From a virus: a stretch of DNA of 37,179 nt. Numbering within the stretch: position 1 is the first letter of the stretch; each line of letters opens with the position of its first letter. Both the position numbers and the translations under genes were made by a program. The notes below the pieces were generated by a model, which saw only the letters and a list, made by a program, of their open reading frames with translations, was not told the origin of the DNA and searched no databases. The stretch covers positions 1-37,179 of the IMG/VR virus record IMGVR_UViG_3300009420_001166. One strand, written 5' to 3'. Below are positions 11,719 through 20,866 of the stretch, in pieces.

Positions 11719-12218
11719 AATATGATATGACAACTTTCTTTAAAGATGGTTTTTATACTGGTCATTTAGATTTAAATGTACAACTATTTGATGATGTAAA
11801 GTTTCCTAGTATTGACTATGACGCTAAAGACTTAATATTATCTGATATCTGTAAACAAGAGATTAAGAATGTACAAGAACAACTAGAAGAAGTTATATCA
11901 GAAACATATCCTAAATTTGAACTGACAGAAGAAGTTGGTTTATGGAATGGAGTAACCAAAGATAACAACGAATTTCATAATGATTTTGTTGCAGGTGACA
12001 AATTTAATTCAAACATATTAGTATACCTAGATGAAGGTAATGATGACAACGAAAACTACATTGAAATAAAAGGCGAAGATAAATGTAGAATATTCTGTAA
12101 CCCTGGACAATTTGTCTGGTTAAACCAATCGCCACAATTTGAGCATAGAGCAAACAATGGTAGAGGTAATAGAAGACTATTACACTTTGCATATTATATA
12201 CCGGAGATAAAAAAATGA
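11715..12218 (+). CDS. 2OG-Fe(II) oxygenase (prolyl 4-hydroxylase-like)
   Basis: The 167-residue protein has the double-stranded beta-helix signature: HND (H88, D90) before a SNILVYLDEGND strand, then the distal histidine in FEHRANNGRGNRR (H144) and an arginine (R153 or R154) to bind 2-oxoglutarate, ending in LLHFAYYIP. All Fe and cosubstrate ligands appear present. The short form is common in marine phages, where targets are unknown. The ATG overlaps the stop of the PLP gene, and its own stop overlaps the ATG of the following methyltransferase-like gene. It is distinct from the Asp-hydroxylase-like domain two genes upstream, so the block holds two different 2OG oxygenases. Confidence 0.75.
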   Translation: MKYDMTTFFKDGFYTGHLDLNVQLFDDVKFPSIDYDAKDLILSDICKQEIKNVQEQLEEVISETYPKFELTEEVGLWNGVTKDNNEFHNDFVAGDKFNSNILVYLDEGNDDNENYIEIKGEDKCRIFCNPGQFVWLNQSPQFEHRANNGRGNRRLLHFAYYIPEIKK

Positions 12219-12910
12219 AAGACATAATTAATCAATTTCATCACGGTGACGCTTTTGATATATTTCCTAAAGTAGAAGACAAGAGTATTGATTTAACCTT
12301 TACTAGTTTACCTGATATATCACAAGGTCCGTGGGGTAAAGATATAGAACAATACCAAGAGTTTCAAAATAGAAGTTGCGACCAGATGGCAAGAATTACG
12401 AAAGACGAAGGCTTCGTAGTTATATCACAAACAGATAGAAAGATTAATGGTGAGATACTACCTAACCATATAACATATCATCAAGCAATGATAAGAAATG
12501 GTTTTAAATTAAAAGACTATAAGATAATGGTAAGAAATACTCCTGTTGAAAAGAGAGATATGTATTACTTCAATTATCAACATACACTTGTATTCACAAA
12601 GAAAGGTACTATCAAACGAGGTGGTGACTGGTTAAAGAACATATTAGTATATGAAACAAAGAGACTAGGTAATATCAAAGGTCCTTTCAATCTATATGTG
12701 TGGAACGATAATTTTATTAAACTTATAGTTGATTATCTATCAAAAGAGAATCAAATAGTATTTGACCCATTTGCTGGTAGTGGTATTGTGCCTTGGATTG
12801 CAAAAGAAATGAGAAGACAATACATTGGAGTTGAACTGGATAAAGAGGTTTTTGATAAATCATACTTTAATCGACTCGACCTGCTTGACAAGTTTGGGAA
12901 AGTAATGTAG
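12215..12910 (+). CDS. DNA methyltransferase-like protein (N4/N6 class) with degenerate catalytic motif
   Basis: The 231-residue protein has the circularly permuted layout of N4-cytosine/N6-adenine methyltransferases: a catalytic-motif region first (DLTFTSLPDISQGPWG, 27-41) and the SAM-binding motif last (FDPFAGSG, 183-190), with YIGVELD after it. At the catalytic site the expected TSPPY reads TSLPD (30-34), so both the second motif proline and the aromatic residue that stacks on the flipped base are changed. It may be inactive, use another target, or have regulatory use. The SAM site is intact. The start overlaps the preceding stop (ATGA) and is preceded by GGAG. Its last bases contain the next promoter. 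Confidence 0.7.
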   Translation: MKDIINQFHHGDAFDIFPKVEDKSIDLTFTSLPDISQGPWGKDIEQYQEFQNRSCDQMARITKDEGFVVISQTDRKINGEILPNHITYHQAMIRNGFKLKDYKIMVRNTPVEKRDMYYFNYQHTLVFTKKGTIKRGGDWLKNILVYETKRLGNIKGPFNLYVWNDNFIKLIVDYLSKENQIVFDPFAGSGIVPWIAKEMRRQYIGVELDKEVFDKSYFNRLDLLDKFGKVM

Positions 12911-13699: not shown

Positions 13700-14848
13700 A
13701 TGAAAAAACTTACAGATACAAAAGGTAGTGCAACACTAGAAGCATTTGTTGACATACAAGGCGAAGAGAATATCACAAGAAAAGGTAATCTTAAAGGTGT
13801 TGTAACCGATGAAGTTGAACTAGAAAGAAACATTGATGAAGTATATCAATATTGGCAGACTAGAGGCTTTCCTTATTATTCTGTAGACGAACAATGGAGA
13901 AAAGAAAAGTTTGCTAAACTATCTTCTGTAAATTGTAAAGATTTATTGACACAAGATAAAATAATCAAACCACACCAAGAAGGTCTATCACTTGCATGGT
14001 CTTATATGCCACATAGTTTTGGCATTAGATGTGGTAAGATGAAAACTCCTATGGAGATATATGAAAATGAAGAACACTTTAAGAAAGGTATTAAGAAACT
14101 ATTAACTGGTTCTTTCTTTGGTAAGTATTCAGTAAATCAATTGAAACCTATTTCATATGATATCTATGGTAACGAGACACACACAAGTGACCAAGCGAAA
14201 CACAAAGCAGAAAGTACAATGCGAAGTCTACTAAGAAGATATACAGGTACTCAATGTGTATCTAATTTCAGACCAACAGCAGCTGCCTGTTTATATCAAA
14301 ACTTTATGCAACCTGGAGAACTAGTCTGGGATATGAGTATGGGTTATGGTGGTCGTATACTTGGTGCAATGATTTCAGATATTAACTATGTAGGTACAGA
14401 CCCTGCAACATTGACATTTAAAGGACTAACAGAAATTAAAGCGAATCACGCTAATCCTAATAGACATTACTTCTTAAATAAACAAGGTAGTGAAAATTTT
14501 AAACCTAAAGAGAATACACTAGACTTTGCATTTACAAGTCCACCGTATTTCAATTGGGAACATTATAGTGATGACGCTGAACAATCATTTAAGAACTTCA
14601 GCACTAACGAAGAATGGAACAACGGTTTCTTACGAGAGACTATTAAGAATGTTTATCAAGGATTGAAACCAGGTAAGTACATGGGATTGAATGTAGCGAA
14701 TATCAAATCACATAAAACCTTTGAAGTCGATACGGTGCGAATCGCTGAAGAAGAAGGCTTCAAACATACTGATACATACAAGCTTCAACTATCATCACAA
14801 GAGAGTGGCGCTAAATATGAACCAGTCTTTATACTACAAAAGCCCTAA
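13700..14848 (+). CDS. DNA methyltransferase with TSPPYF motif, paralogue of the gene at 29886
   Basis: The 382-residue protein has a SAM-binding motif LVWDMSMGYGGRI (about 208-220), a GTDP acidic loop (232-235) and an intact catalytic motif FTSPPYF (278-284), the N4-cytosine/N6-adenine class signature. About 200 residues precede the SAM motif and include LRRYTGTQCVSNFRPTAA, perhaps a target-recognition or specialised fold. The same element order (DTSCGWGDR, CDPNPNT, FTSPPYF) is found at 29886, showing two divergent copies in one window. It could methylate phage or host DNA, or another nucleic acid; the target is unknown. It ends the overlapping block that began with peptide deformylase. Confidence 0.8.
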   Translation: MKKLTDTKGSATLEAFVDIQGEENITRKGNLKGVVTDEVELERNIDEVYQYWQTRGFPYYSVDEQWRKEKFAKLSSVNCKDLLTQDKIIKPHQEGLSLAWSYMPHSFGIRCGKMKTPMEIYENEEHFKKGIKKLLTGSFFGKYSVNQLKPISYDIYGNETHTSDQAKHKAESTMRSLLRRYTGTQCVSNFRPTAAACLYQNFMQPGELVWDMSMGYGGRILGAMISDINYVGTDPATLTFKGLTEIKANHANPNRHYFLNKQGSENFKPKENTLDFAFTSPPYFNWEHYSDDAEQSFKNFSTNEEWNNGFLRETIKNVYQGLKPGKYMGLNVANIKSHKTFEVDTVRIAEEEGFKHTDTYKLQLSSQESGAKYEPVFILQKP

Positions 14849-14945: not shown

Positions 14946-15004
14946 ATACACAAAAACCCTATATTCTATACGGTTTAAAAATAAATGAAAAAAAAGTGAG
15001 CATT

Positions 15005-15047
15005 TGCTCGATTAGTGCTTGACATATGCTAGGAAGTATGGTATTAT
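15005..15047 (+). promoter_or_regulatory. TGCTC-type sigma70-like promoter for the peptidase-VWA gene
   Basis: TGCTC (15005-15009) lies nine bases before TTGACA (15019-15024), then a 17-bp spacer and TATTAT (15042-15047). An inverted GAGCA copy sits directly upstream, and an A-rich tract precedes it. The same TGCTC-N9-TTGACA layout occurs at 17432 and 34157. Confidence 0.75.
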
Positions 15048-15079
15048 GTATATATTGAATGAACGAAAGGCAACACACT

Positions 15080-17386
15080 ATGAAAAACACTACTATTAAC
15101 TTTGACGCCAAATCAGGACTTGCTAAACTATTAGCGACTGAAAATCTACAAGTACAACATGATAATGTAACCACTGCTTCTTTTAACTTAGAAGACAGGA
15201 TACTTACTATTCCAGTTTTCAAAAATCCAAAAGGTGCAGTTTACGATATGTTAATTGCCCACGAAGTCGCTCACGCTTTACATACTCCTTTTAAAGGTTG
15301 GAGAAAAGCAGTAGAAGACAATGGTGATATCAGAGATTATATCAATGTATTAGAAGATACTAGAATTGACAAGATTATTAAGAAACAATATCCTGGTGTA
15401 GTTGCCGACTACCAAGACGGTTTCAAAATCTTATGGGCTGATAACTTCTTCGGTTGTTCAAATAAAGATTTAAATAAAGACTTAATGTTAATTGACAAGA
15501 TTAACCTTTTCTCAAAATCATCTGAAACATTACAATTTGACTTATCAGATATTGATAAAACATGGTTTGCTAAAGTAGACAAAATCAAATCTTTCAAAGA
15601 TGTTGTCGAACTTGCAAAAAAACTTTCAGATTGGCAGAAAAAACAAAACGAGAAGTTATTGAAACTTCCTGACTTTGATAGTCACCCCCTAGTAAAAGCA
15701 TACGGACAAAAAGAAAAGGAACAAGAAAGTGATAATTCACAATCATCTTCTCAATCTCAATCGTCTGACCAATCTAACGAAGAGACGGAAGGTAGAGAAA
15801 ATAAACAAGACGGAAACAAATCTTCAAAAAAAGAAGGAGACAACTCATCAAAATCAGAGAACGGAAAAAGCGACAACAACGGAGACGGCGAAGACAAGGA
15901 AGATAAACCTACTAGTTTAGAAGACCAAGAAGCTAATCCAGACGGTGCCGGTGGTAAAGATGTAAAAATCAGTTTACCTTTGAAGTCTCTTACTAATGAG
16001 AACGCTGAACAAGCTACTCAAAAAGATTATGTTGATAATCAACACAGAGGTTATTCATATATGAGTTTGCCTGATAGTAACCTTGATGATATTATCATAA
16101 CTACTAAACAATGGTTAAACGAAAATATCAGAAAGTGTAAAGATACACCAAGTACATATTCAGATAACATGGAAAGATTTAAGAAATTCCATAAAGATAG
16201 TAAGAAGACTATTCAGTATCTTGTAAAAGAATTTGAAATGAAAAAATCTGCTGACGGTTATAAGAGAATGACTACCGATAAGACTGGTATCTTGGATCCT
16301 CTTAAACTAAAAGACTATAAATTTTCAGAAGATATTTTCAAAAGAATGTCTATTATTCCTGACGCTAAAAATCACGGTATGATTTTATTACTTGATTGGT
16401 CTGGAAGTATGGCACCTGTTATTGATAAGACGGTTGAACAATTATGTCAACTAGTTTGGTTTGTAAAACAAATCAATATTCCTTTCAAAGTGTATTTCTT
16501 TTCAGACAAAATTGAGTTTAATGACCAATACAATTATAGAAATAGAGAAGCAAAAAGAAAGGCAATGAAATCCTTTGCATATAAAGCTGGTGACGCTCAC
16601 TTTGATGACTTCAATCTAGTTGAAGTTGCCTCTCATACAATGAAGAAGATGGACTTAGAACAATCTTTAATGTTCTTGTGGTCATACGGAAAACATTATG
16701 CAGACAATAACCACTGGAGAAATAACAACTATGTTGAGTATCTTTATCCACCAACTGCTTTTTACCTTTCATCTACACCTTTGAATGAAAGTTTGGCTGC
16801 AATGAATAAGATTATTCCATTGTTCAAACAGAAGTATCAAGTTGAAAAGTTATCGTTAATTACTTTGACAGACGGTCACTCTAATAATGACAACAAAACA
16901 ACTTACAAAACTAATGATGAAGGTCAACTTGTTCCTAGAAGAGAAGGTTACGGTAAGACAGCATTACTTAAAGTCGGCAGTAAGTATATAAAGACTAAAG
17001 GTAATACAACTGCTTTAGTACTTCAAGGACTTAAAAGAAAGTTTAATGTAACCACTATCGGTTTCTTCATTGTTAAGAGACCAAGAGGTTGGGACTTTGA
17101 GAGATATCTTGGACTTGACCATATCAAAGATTACTTTTTGAGAGACCAGAAAATGCAAATGTTAAAGAAAGAATTTTCTAAAAACAAATCATGTGCTGTC
17201 TCCCAAAACGGTTACAATGAATTTTATCTAATCAACGGAAAAGATATGAATATCGAAAACGGTCAATTAGATGAGATAAAAGAAGACGCTAAGAAAGGTG
17301 ATATTAAGAGACTATTCACCAAATCAATGAAATCCAAGACGGTATCCAGAGTGCTGTTGAGTAAATTTATTAAGCAGGTTGCCTAA
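15080..17386 (+). CDS. Metallopeptidase-VWA fusion protein (CobT-like / DUF2201-like)
   Basis: The 768-residue protein has an N-terminal gluzincin-like domain with HEVAH (61-65) followed by NVLEDTRID (89-97), which can supply the third zinc ligand. A long low-complexity linker of Ser, Gln, Asp, Glu and Lys spans about 210-295, and a C-terminal von Willebrand factor A domain carries the MIDAS motif DWSGS (439-443). VWA proteins of this type act with MoxR/CobS-family AAA+ ATPases, such as the one encoded next. In cobaltochelatase the CobT subunit has such a linker and VWA domain, but the peptidase motif suggests processing or remodelling of a protein. The ATG at 15080 follows AAAGG; an ATG at 15059 lacks a site. 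The predicted leader is about 26 nt. Confidence 0.8.
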   Translation: MKNTTINFDAKSGLAKLLATENLQVQHDNVTTASFNLEDRILTIPVFKNPKGAVYDMLIAHEVAHALHTPFKGWRKAVEDNGDIRDYINVLEDTRIDKIIKKQYPGVVADYQDGFKILWADNFFGCSNKDLNKDLMLIDKINLFSKSSETLQFDLSDIDKTWFAKVDKIKSFKDVVELAKKLSDWQKKQNEKLLKLPDFDSHPLVKAYGQKEKEQESDNSQSSSQSQSSDQSNEETEGRENKQDGNKSSKKEGDNSSKSENGKSDNNGDGEDKEDKPTSLEDQEANPDGAGGKDVKISLPLKSLTNENAEQATQKDYVDNQHRGYSYMSLPDSNLDDIIITTKQWLNENIRKCKDTPSTYSDNMERFKKFHKDSKKTIQYLVKEFEMKKSADGYKRMTTDKTGILDPLKLKDYKFSEDIFKRMSIIPDAKNHGMILLLDWSGSMAPVIDKTVEQLCQLVWFVKQINIPFKVYFFSDKIEFNDQYNYRNREAKRKAMKSFAYKAGDAHFDDFNLVEVASHTMKKMDLEQSLMFLWSYGKHYADNNHWRNNNYVEYLYPPTAFYLSSTPLNESLAAMNKIIPLFKQKYQVEKLSLITLTDGHSNNDNKTTYKTNDEGQLVPRREGYGKTALLKVGSKYIKTKGNTTALVLQGLKRKFNVTTIGFFIVKRPRGWDFERYLGLDHIKDYFLRDQKMQMLKKEFSKNKSCAVSQNGYNEFYLINGKDMNIENGQLDEIKEDAKKGDIKRLFTKSMKSKTVSRVLLSKFIKQVA

Positions 17387-17431
17387 TGAGGGATAAATCG
17401 TTGATAACCTTAGTGAAAAAAAATGAAAAAA

Positions 17432-17474
17432 TGCTCACTTTTCGCTTGACAAAGCTTTTAAAGTGTGGTATAAT
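17432..17474 (+). promoter_or_regulatory. TGCTC-type sigma70-like promoter for the AAA+ ATPase gene
   Basis: TGCTC (17432-17436), nine bases, TTGACA (17446-17451), 17 bp, TATAAT (17469-17474). An A-rich tract precedes it. The distance from -10 to ATG (32 intervening bases) is the same as for the VWA gene, so the pair is probably co-regulated. Confidence 0.85.
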
Positions 17475-17506
17475 ACTTGTATATAATGAAACAAAAGGAT
17501 AACACT

Positions 17507-18760
17507 ATGATAACACTAAATGAAAAACAACAGGAATTCGTAAACGCCTGTATAAAAATGTTTCCGAATAACGATACTTTAGATAACGCTGAATTGTTAT
17601 CAGTATCTAAATCTCTCGGCATGAATTTCAAACCACAATGGTTAGTTAGGAATACAGAGTTAAGAGTAGGCAGAGGAAGTTATAAGATTCCTAAGAATGG
17701 CGAAGTGCCAACTGCTACTAAAATCACAATGCCTAATGTCTTAAATGATAATGCTGTTGATGTACCAACAATACCAGAAGTTGCTCAGACTACTAAAGTT
17801 TCAGAAGCTGCTTATGTTGTTTCATCTTTAGTTGACAATCTAGTGCCTAACAAAGACGCTACTTTTGTTCCTTTTGGAAATCATCCTGATGTTAGAAACA
17901 TTGTTAAGTCAAAACAATTTTATCCAATATTCATAACCGGTCTATCTGGTAATGGTAAGACTTTTTCAGTTGTTCAAGCTGCCGCTGAGGCAAAGAGAGA
18001 ATTGATAAGAGTAAACATTACGATTGAAACCGATGAAGATGATTTACTTGGAGGTTACAGATTAAGAGACGGTAACACTATTTGGCAGAATGGTCCTGTT
18101 ATCGAGGCGATGGAGAGAGGTGCAATATTGCTCCTTGATGAAGTTGACCTTGCTTCTAACAAGATTATGTGTCTACAACCAATCCTTGAAGGTAACGGAG
18201 TTTATGTTAAGAAGATTAACAAATTCGTTAAACCAAGTGCTGGTTTCAATGTAGTCGCTACTGCAAATACTAAAGGTCAAGGAAGTGATGATGGTAAGTT
18301 TATCGGTACTAACATACTGAACGAAGCTTTCCTAGAAAGATTTCCAGTTACCTTTGAACAGCAGTACCCATCTGCTAAAACTGAACAGAAGATACTTAAC
18401 AACACTCTTGCTTTAACCGGTAAGAAAGATGTCGAGTATGTTGAGAAGTTATCAACATGGGCTGATGTAATCAGAAAGACCTACTTTGAAGGTGGGGTTG
18501 ATGAGATTATCAGTACCAGAAGATTAGTACACATTGTACAAGCTTACGGAATCTTTGGAAATAAGATGAAGGCGATTGAACTATGTACTAATAGATTTGA
18601 TAACGATACAAAAGCTTCTTTTGTTGACTTGTACACGAAAGTGGACGCCGGTGCTACTGCCGAGAGTATTGCTCAAGAGCAGAAAGAATCAGCGTTAAAG
18701 GAACAAATGATGTCCAATGATAGTGAGGAAGATAATGAGTCCGAAGAGGACTTCGTTTAA
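17507..18760 (+). CDS. cobS: MoxR/CbbQ/CobS-like AAA+ ATPase
   Basis: The 417-residue protein has a poorly conserved N-terminal third (about 1-120) and a AAA+ core: Walker A GLSGNGKT (145-152), the family hallmark DDLLGGYRLRDG followed by WQNGPVIEAM, Walker B LLLDEVD (208-214), and an NLL-ERF segment near the sensor region. Marine T4-like phages carry this gene widely under the name cobS, after the cobaltochelatase ATPase. The CbbQ/NorQ/MoxR family more generally remodels protein complexes together with a VWA partner, and exactly such a partner lies upstream. Cobalamin synthesis is therefore only one option; no CobN-like subunit is visible. I chose ATG 17507, preceded by AAAGGAT, over upstream TTG or ATG codons. 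The C-terminal tail is acidic. Confidence 0.85.
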   Translation: MITLNEKQQEFVNACIKMFPNNDTLDNAELLSVSKSLGMNFKPQWLVRNTELRVGRGSYKIPKNGEVPTATKITMPNVLNDNAVDVPTIPEVAQTTKVSEAAYVVSSLVDNLVPNKDATFVPFGNHPDVRNIVKSKQFYPIFITGLSGNGKTFSVVQAAAEAKRELIRVNITIETDEDDLLGGYRLRDGNTIWQNGPVIEAMERGAILLLDEVDLASNKIMCLQPILEGNGVYVKKINKFVKPSAGFNVVATANTKGQGSDDGKFIGTNILNEAFLERFPVTFEQQYPSAKTEQKILNNTLALTGKKDVEYVEKLSTWADVIRKTYFEGGVDEIISTRRLVHIVQAYGIFGNKMKAIELCTNRFDNDTKASFVDLYTKVDAGATAESIAQEQKESALKEQMMSNDSEEDNESEEDFV

Positions 18761-19131: not shown

Positions 19132-19341
19132 TTGAGTATACTTGTAACCGTTCGGAATGGTAACTTAGAACAAGCAATGAAAGTGCTTAAGAAAAAAGTT
19201 ATGAAAGAAGGACTTGTGAAGGAGATACGCCAGAGACAATTTTACGAGAAACCTAGTGATAAGAGGGTTCGTAAAAATAAAGAAATGGCTGCTGCCTGGA
19301 AAAAGAAGCAAAAGAAACTAAAAGCACAAAGAGGCTTTTAA
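19132..19341 (+). CDS. rpsU: Ribosomal protein bS21 homologue
   Basis: The 69-residue protein matches bS21: a short N-terminal beta part (LVTVRNGNLEQAMKVLKKKV) and a basic helix with IRQRQFYEKPSDKRVRKNKE, where the REFYEKP core of bacterial S21 is nearly intact, and a Lys-rich end. bS21 sits on the 30S platform near the 3' end of 16S rRNA and helps start translation on structured messages. Phage copies are known in pelagiphages and could replace the host protein to favour phage mRNA. The start codon is TTG, supported by GGGAGG eight bases upstream; no better ATG exists. Confidence 0.9.
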   Translation: MSILVTVRNGNLEQAMKVLKKKVMKEGLVKEIRQRQFYEKPSDKRVRKNKEMAAAWKKKQKKLKAQRGF

Positions 19342-20320: not shown

Positions 20321-20866
20321 ATGAAGAATGAAATGAAGATACCAAAGGTTACTTTTAGAGTACGAGAAGGTGACGAGATTTCATCGGAAGGCGGTTGTCC
20401 TATCGGTGGTGAATGGTTGAATAAGACAACAAATGATTATTTCAAAAATAAGAGAGTTGTATTATTCAGTCTACCTGGTGCATTTACGCCGACTTGTTCA
20501 AGTCAGCAGTTGCCAGGGTTTGAAGAACACTATGATACTATCACAAAGTTTACAATAGATGAAGTTTATTGTATTTCAGTAAATGATAGTTTCGTAATGA
20601 ATGCCTGGAGAGACCATATGGACATTGAGAAAGTAAAATTTATTCCAGACGGTTCAGGAAACTTTACAAGATTTATGGGAATGCTAATTGGTAAGAACCA
20701 TTTAGGTTTCGGTAATAGAAGTTGGAGATATATGGCAGTTATTAATAACGGCATTGTTGAGAAATGGTTCCAAGAAAAAGGTATCAACAATGAAGGAAAA
20801 GATGATGACCCATATGTAGAAACAACTCCAGAGAAGATGTTAGAATATTTACGACAAAGTGAATAG
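20321..20866 (+). CDS. Peroxiredoxin (Prx5/AhpE-type thiol peroxidase)
   Basis: The 181-residue protein reduces peroxides with a reactive cysteine. The active-site block SLPGAFTPTCSSQQLPGFEEH carries the peroxidatic Cys59 in the P-x-x-x-T-x-x-C frame, typical of the Prx5 subfamily with its PGAFTPTCS sequence. Later conserved parts include AWRDHMDIEKVKFIPDGSG and RYMAVINNGIVEKWF. A second cysteine at 26 (GGCPIGG) and one near 84 might serve as resolving residues, which is not certain. It stands alone between its own promoter and that of the clamp gene. It would protect the infected cell or phage enzymes from oxidative stress. Confidence 0.88.
   Translation: MKNEMKIPKVTFRVREGDEISSEGGCPIGGEWLNKTTNDYFKNKRVVLFSLPGAFTPTCSSQQLPGFEEHYDTITKFTIDEVYCISVNDSFVMNAWRDHMDIEKVKFIPDGSGNFTRFMGMLIGKNHLGFGNRSWRYMAVINNGIVEKWFQEKGINNEGKDDDPYVETTPEKMLEYLRQSE

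Follow-up and report, generated by a model that had tools for sequence, protein, structure and literature searches.

In marine T4-like phages, few genes are commoner than two that lie side by side: do these serve the synthesis of vitamin B12, or do they encode a machine that acts on proteins? The 'cobS' half is routinely listed among auxiliary metabolic genes for vitamin B12, and published readings of the pair are in conflict. Liu et al. 2021, like earlier cyanophage papers, regard the phage proteins as cobaltochelatase subunits that hijack host CobN, and call the peptidase label a mistake (PMC8651126); the cobalamin claim has been restated (PMC9503304), and a pelagimyophage paper counts cobS and cobT as auxiliary metabolic genes (PMC7029224). 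Iyer et al. 2021 propose that a MoxR-vWA-metallopeptidase pair of jumbo phages is a virion-assembly chaperone (PMC7824862). We analyze here the pair in the IMG/VR virus record IMGVR_UViG_3300009420_001166, whose 37,179 bases are called the window below. Gene content and order of the window agree with the T4-like pelagiphages Mosig and HTVC008M. Its phage is probably a marine one with SAR11 bacteria as hosts, and its nearest isolates infect Pelagibacter HTCC1062.

Our answer, to which we assign a probability of roughly 55%, is that the pair is a two-component, ATP-driven MoxR-VWA protein-remodelling machine with probable cleavage of an early client by an HExxH domain, and not a cobalt chelatase. 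This kind of system has already been described, and the window pair is another member. The first-pass annotation of the window had proposed a MoxR-VWA machine with intact peptidase motif. The observation behind it is confirmed and the interpretation supported in part, although the idea was not original, being present in Iyer et al. 2021 and in the PHROGs label 'peptidase'. Our own contribution is to test the cobalamin reading, with results that count against it, to show that HExxH is retained where CobT lacks the motif, and to provide evidence from promoters and genomic context.

The two genes and their products

Both open reading frames named in the first-pass annotation are present (15059-17386 and 17477-18760, as delimited mechanically). 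The true starts are likely 15080 and 17507, since both of these ATGs lie behind a purine-rich, Shine-Dalgarno-like stretch, and since the mechanical starts follow the -10 boxes by only 11 bases (peptidase-VWA gene) and 2 bases (AAA+ gene). Residue numbers of the peptidase-VWA protein refer to the resulting 768 amino acids, in which HEVAH is 61-65. MIDAS stands for metal ion-dependent adhesion site, pLDDT for predicted local distance difference test.

15080-17386, + strand: metallopeptidase-like/VWA protein, 768 amino acids (phrog_459 'peptidase'; 775 amino acids in the mechanical frame from 15059)
15260-15274, + strand: HEVAH (H61, E62, x, x, H65), putative zinc ligands and catalytic Glu, invariant in sets of 48, 14 and 73 sequences
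15353-15358, + strand: E92-D93, putative third ligand, gluzincin-like, 27 residues past H65, invariant
15716-15961, + strand: disordered, mildly acidic linker, residues 213-294 (pLDDT below 50)
16373-17074, + strand: VWA domain, about residues 432-665, MIDAS invariant, best Foldseek match NorD VWA
16394-16408, + strand: MIDAS DWSGS (D439-W-S-G-S443)
17507-18760, + strand: MoxR-class AAA+ ATPase, 417 amino acids (phrog_249 'CobS'; mechanical frame from 17477)
17939-17962, + strand: Walker A GLSGNGKT, invariant in 25 sequences
18128-18142, + strand: Walker B LLLDE, invariant in 25 sequences

The first protein matches phrog_459 over its whole length (E 7e-178), and its layout of N-terminal HExxH...ED domain, disordered acidic linker and C-terminal MIDAS-type VWA domain is confirmed. 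The long acidic linker of the first-pass annotation is indeed disordered, though only mildly acidic (23 D/E versus 11 K/R in 82 residues). Further MIDAS residues are T566 and D598. Together with H61, E62, H65, E92, D93, D439, S441 and S443, they are invariant in two alignments, one of 48 sequences with 39-61% identity to the window and one of 14 sequences reaching down to 22%. In a third alignment, the HExxH, ED and DxSxS columns are conserved in 73 of 73 sequences. The protein thus has both HExxH and a conserved downstream Glu as putative ligand (H61, E62, H65 and E92), as in gluzincin-like metallopeptidases. HExxH is also intact in all 27 full-length copies on contigs of metagenome-assembled genomes or isolates, three of which have no match to the regular expression DxS[GA]S and one of which reads EDVRV. 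Judging from these alignments, conservation of the motifs in this family is far beyond chance.

The AlphaFold2 model of the peptidase-VWA protein has a mean pLDDT of 74.5, with values mostly above 80 in the N-terminal domain and about 81-91 in the block around HExxH; E92-D93 fall within the predicted helix 82-103. Foldseek places the VWA domain with NorD and the MIDAS domain of MDN1. Two sequence matches were rejected: Pneumo_ncap, the sole Pfam match of the window protein, is weak (E 0.053), and a search of PDB sequences with the family profile returned only low-complexity linker matches (SNF5).

The second protein matches phrog_249 ('CobS', porphyrin biosynthesis; E 2e-121) and Pfam AAA_5 (E 3e-17). 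Its AlphaFold2 model is weaker (mean pLDDT 70.7), and Foldseek matches it to NorQ/CbbQ with E values of about 1e-9 to 5e-13. Sensor-1 N254, R278 and R338-R339 are invariant like the Walker motifs, so that the AAA+ core has the Walker A and B motifs, sensor 1, arginine finger and sensor 2 of the MoxR class. The neighbouring VWA gene with its invariant MIDAS (DxSxS...T...D) places the pair in the MoxR-VWA class.

Co-occurrence of the two genes

In tblastn searches, the peptidase-VWA protein was found in 463 phage records and the AAA+ protein in 522, with equal counts for Synechococcus (365/365), Cyanophage (61/61) and Prochlorococcus (24/24) records. All 80 records with enough flanking sequence, including the window and its own duplicate, have the genes as a tandem pair. 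Together with the equal record counts, this amounts to near-perfect co-occurrence, the first check that the first-pass annotation had named. In the five loci that lack the AAA+ gene, the sequence ends at or just past the peptidase-VWA gene. Strict adjacency is broken in P-TIM68 by five intervening genes, one of them purM. Frequent occurrence of cobS without the VWA gene, which the first-pass annotation had named as counting against its reading, was not seen among close relatives; next to some distant AAA proteins of the broad class (in phage K and Acinetobacter Ab15), DUF7192 takes the place of VWA. By sequence similarity, both proteins are members of families that are widespread in T4-like marine phages.

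The Gordonia phage GodonK (L172, 6525-8789) encodes, near a CobS-like AAA, a protein in which HETGH is followed by an EELRCED stretch and which also contains DVSGS. Pfam found nothing in this protein. The peptidase-VWA kind may therefore extend to actinophages.

Relation to CobS, CobT and CobN

The proposal that the phage proteins act as CobS and CobT alongside the CobN of the host, and so provide more cobalamin for ribonucleotide reduction, draws on homology that exists but is distant. The window AAA+ protein scores 64.5 bits against CobS (TIGR01650), far below the curated cut-off of 558.55. In a tree, its clade is separate from bona fide and SAR11 CobS (clades supported, long branches flagged). 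Searches of Pfam and NCBIfam with the peptidase-VWA protein of the window gave no match to the CobT families TIGR01651, PF06213 and PF11775. A CobT profile made here scored via the low-complexity acidic linker only, and was not taken as evidence of homology.

The connection to CobT comes from bridging proteins. A profile of the phage family finds proteins of a Methylobacter group, including L123, which have HExxH plus an EDIRIEK helix, and one of which is CobT by Pfam (E 4e-13). Proteins from Klebsiella (L173) and Aeromonas plasmids likewise have HExxH, and their VWA matches that of CobT strongly. As the bridging proteins of L123 and L173 carry CobT Pfam domains and HExxH, the domain order of CobT is recognizable, with a homologous N-terminal domain. 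By these comparisons, the homology of the pair to CobS and CobT is real but remote; that the peptidase-VWA protein is a distant CobT homologue had been overlooked in the first-pass annotation. On the Methylococcaceae-group contigs L123 (2481-7779) and L125, the CobT-like protein with HExxH is part of a module with a CbbQ/CobS-like AAA and DUF3150.

HExxH is kept in the phage family, but absent from the N-terminal region of all 31 bona fide alphaproteobacterial CobTs, in which an E-x-x-R helix is kept almost throughout. We favour a history in which HExxH would have been lost in some lineages over one in which it was gained repeatedly. A hand alignment equating CobT 'HDxxVH' with HExxH was not adopted, as MAFFT and hidden Markov model alignments of the bridging proteins put HExxH on CobT GxADAxAL.

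The search for a CobN-like partner, which the first-pass annotation had suggested, gave no CobN family match in any of 58 SAR11-order genomes. These genomes were found with a 16S probe, the order being that of hit G214; G214 and G304 match all four SAR11 fluorescence in situ hybridization probes. CobT is present in 55 of the 58 genomes, with a CobS-like gene adjacent in the SAR11 loci examined (L160-L163, L166-L168). The same search was positive in controls, namely Synechococcus elongatus and also Prochlorococcus. As CobN was missing from all 58 genomes while the search works in controls, a CobN-dependent role in SAR11 hosts is unlikely. This conclusion is limited to SAR11 and does not extend to cyanophages: genomes of Prochlorococcus and Synechococcus carry CobN-family genes, which speak for the chelatase proposal, as do the 64 bits of CobS homology and the bridging proteins with their CobT domains and HExxH. 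Set against the missing CobN in likely hosts of pelagiphages, the separate AAA+ clade and the HExxH contrast with CobT, they leave the proposal very improbable. Moreover, Caulobacter, a control with CobT but no CobN match, suggests that CobT need not go with CobN even in cells. The poor fit of the pair to a cobalamin role, which the first-pass annotation had sensed, is thus supported by the CobS score, the HExxH contrast and the absence of CobN in SAR11. For pelagiphages, the cobalamin reading loses its basis, and the intact peptidase motif and the lack of CobN point to remodelling or processing.

Of 41 genomes with CobT in a mixed sample of Alphaproteobacteria, 20 gave no match to CobN. CobST of cells may do something other than insert cobalt, and the question arises what its function is in SAR11 and other Alphaproteobacteria without CobN.

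Promoters and genomic context

Both genes are preceded by strong promoters, and by a common element upstream of them.

14997-15010, + strand: upstream element TGAGCATTTGCTCG, inverted-repeat form (ATGCTCA form in relatives L008-L012)
15019-15047, + strand: promoter of the peptidase-VWA gene, TTGACA-17-TATTAT, TGG before -10
17431-17451, + strand: upstream element ATGCTCACTTTTCGCTTGACA, ending in the -35 box of the AAA+ promoter
17446-17474, + strand: promoter of the AAA+ gene, TTGACA-17-TATAAT, TGG before -10

The "promoters of identical design" of the first-pass annotation were an understatement, since the genes share not only TTGACA-17-TATWAT, but also the upstream element. This element has the form TGCTCA...GCTTGACA. 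As ATGCTCAYWTTTYGCTTGACA or in an inverted-repeat variant, it stands before both genes in 10 of 10 close loci, and it has one other match in the loci searched, which total 1.07 Mb. In IMG/VR, the exact pattern was found at 44 sites in 37 stretches, with one to three copies on each contig that has it. The pair is preceded by 26 of the sites; of the other 18, one is an AAA+ promoter at a stretch end, and the rest precede small open reading frames. With 18 of 44 sites not assigned to the pair, we rejected the idea that the TGCTCA element is confined to it. From its distribution, the element appears to mark a small class of promoters to which those of the pair belong. On marine phage contigs (L180, L183, L193, L201-L203 and others), TGCTCA-GCTTGACA is also found before families of short open reading frames (about 61-82 amino acids, some membrane-like), which are candidates for early genes.

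Strong sigma-70-like promoters resembling TTGACA-17-TATAAT are also present at uvsY, gp45 and other replication-region genes. The tail-tube gene, in contrast, is preceded at 2221 by a late-type TATAAATA box, with 12 bases from the box to the ATG. (Names of genes in the window follow PHROG matches or the synteny shared with Mosig and HTVC008M.) The pair is flanked by gp46/47 on one side and by gp45/44/62 on the other. Its homologues are near gp45/44 in Ochrobactrum phage OC. CobS-CobT-like pairs are beside dnaE in nickie, BUCTxx99 and plasmids of Klebsiella and Aeromonas, near a primase-helicase in DLP6 and near a primase gene in JPW. Taken together, promoter class and placement suggest that the pair is probably made early or in mid-infection with the replication genes. 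A paper on pelagiphage transcriptomes (PMC12753301) does not mention HTVC008M or myoviruses.

These observations bear on the possibility that the MoxR-vWA pair assembles virion parts, with the peptidase trimming structural proteins. The same architecture is found in group 2.2 jumbo phages, and a MoxR-vWA pair of an archaeal virus has been reported as required for tail assembly (PMC7824862), which both speak for such a role. The window pair, however, has sigma-70-like promoters and replication-gene neighbours, and pairs are near replication genes even in phages with different replication systems. In 80 loci per gene, the upstream stretches contain no late TATAAATA motif, where about one per gene is expected by chance; at a background of 1.5% per stretch, this is not significant alone, and we rejected it as statistical evidence. 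Because the replication neighbours recur in unrelated phages and phage-plasmids, we favour an early or replication-stage role, and consider virion assembly unlikely.

A model for the pair

We propose that the AAA+ protein would form a hexameric ring, on which the VWA domain docks while its MIDAS holds the client. The N-terminal HExxH...ED domain, on its flexible linker, would gain access to the remodelled client and in all likelihood cleave it. Probable expression early or in mid-infection with the replication genes makes an early phage or host protein a likelier client than a virion protein. The solved NorQ-NorD machine, both halves of which are matched by fold, is the best available guide to mechanism.

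The NorQ-NorD likeness also invites another explanation, a NorQD-like opening of a phage or host metalloenzyme for metal or cofactor insertion, with HExxH as metal carrier or docking site. The nearest solved folds, NorQ and the NorD VWA, serve iron insertion, CobST too serves metal insertion, and loss of HExxH in some relatives would fit a non-catalytic role. But E62, at the catalytic position, is as invariant as the His ligands, and gene order links no metalloenzyme client, so that we regard metal insertion as distinctly unlikely.

Several points weigh against a remodelling machine that cleaves an early client. Peptidase activity of the HExxH domain is a prediction, and Foldseek returned no metallopeptidase for the N-terminal domain, the hits shown covering VWA only and the full-length query being dominated by VWA. 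HExxH is also lacking in the relatives nickie and BUCTxx99 and in one Acinetobacter plasmid, which implies that catalysis is not always needed. The early promoter class is read from sequence, not from transcripts, and the SAR11 host is deduced from the nearest isolates. A bolder version of the model has the pair as an active early ATP-driven protease acting on a specific phage or host client, bona fide CobT as a catalytically dead descendant of the peptidase-VWA lineage, and SAR11 CobST as a remodeller of proteins with no cobalt role; we offer it tentatively and find it rather doubtful.

Comparison with known systems

Among the closest known systems are phrog_459 and phrog_249 of Kyanoviridae T4-like cyanophages and of pelagiphages, with family matches and the same gene order; the window pair differs from them in sequence divergence only (42.5% to Mosig for the peptidase, 66% for the AAA+ protein). 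The pair of group 2.2 jumbo phages likewise joins a MoxR AAA+ gene to a vWA gene fused to an N-terminal metallopeptidase domain, a likeness in described architecture. The window differs in being a pelagimyophage-like genome with early-type promoters and a replication-gene context. CobS-CobT(-CobN) shares the AAA partner, the layout of acidic linker and VWA, remote homology and the E-x-x-R helix retained in CobT, but CobT is without HExxH, the phage AAA+ protein is far below the CobS cut-off, and the likely hosts are without CobN.

Both halves of the phage pair match NorQ-NorD (and CbbQ-CbbO) by fold. The client of NorD is nitric oxide reductase, and we know of no HExxH peptidase-like domain in NorD. 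In the solved NorQ-NorD machine, a VWA finger enters the AAA pore, and the linker is twisted and stretched (PMC13036017). When PDB sequences were searched with the AAA+ profile, midasin (Rea1/Mdn1) came out best (E about 1e-45); it also matches the VWA/MIDAS fold, but is one giant eukaryotic ribosome-assembly protein without peptidase domain.

Neighbouring genes

PADLOC gave no match to defence systems in the window. Upstream of the pair are two DNA methyltransferase-like genes (12215-12910 and 13700-14848), at a site where Mosig and HTVC008M have different genes. Just 3' of the pair, a gene for ribosomal protein bS21 (19132-19341) is found in the window, and likewise in Mosig and HTVC008M. 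A peroxiredoxin-like gene (phrog_2281) follows at 20321-20866; the same region in HTVC008M and Mosig has genes for small heat-shock proteins.

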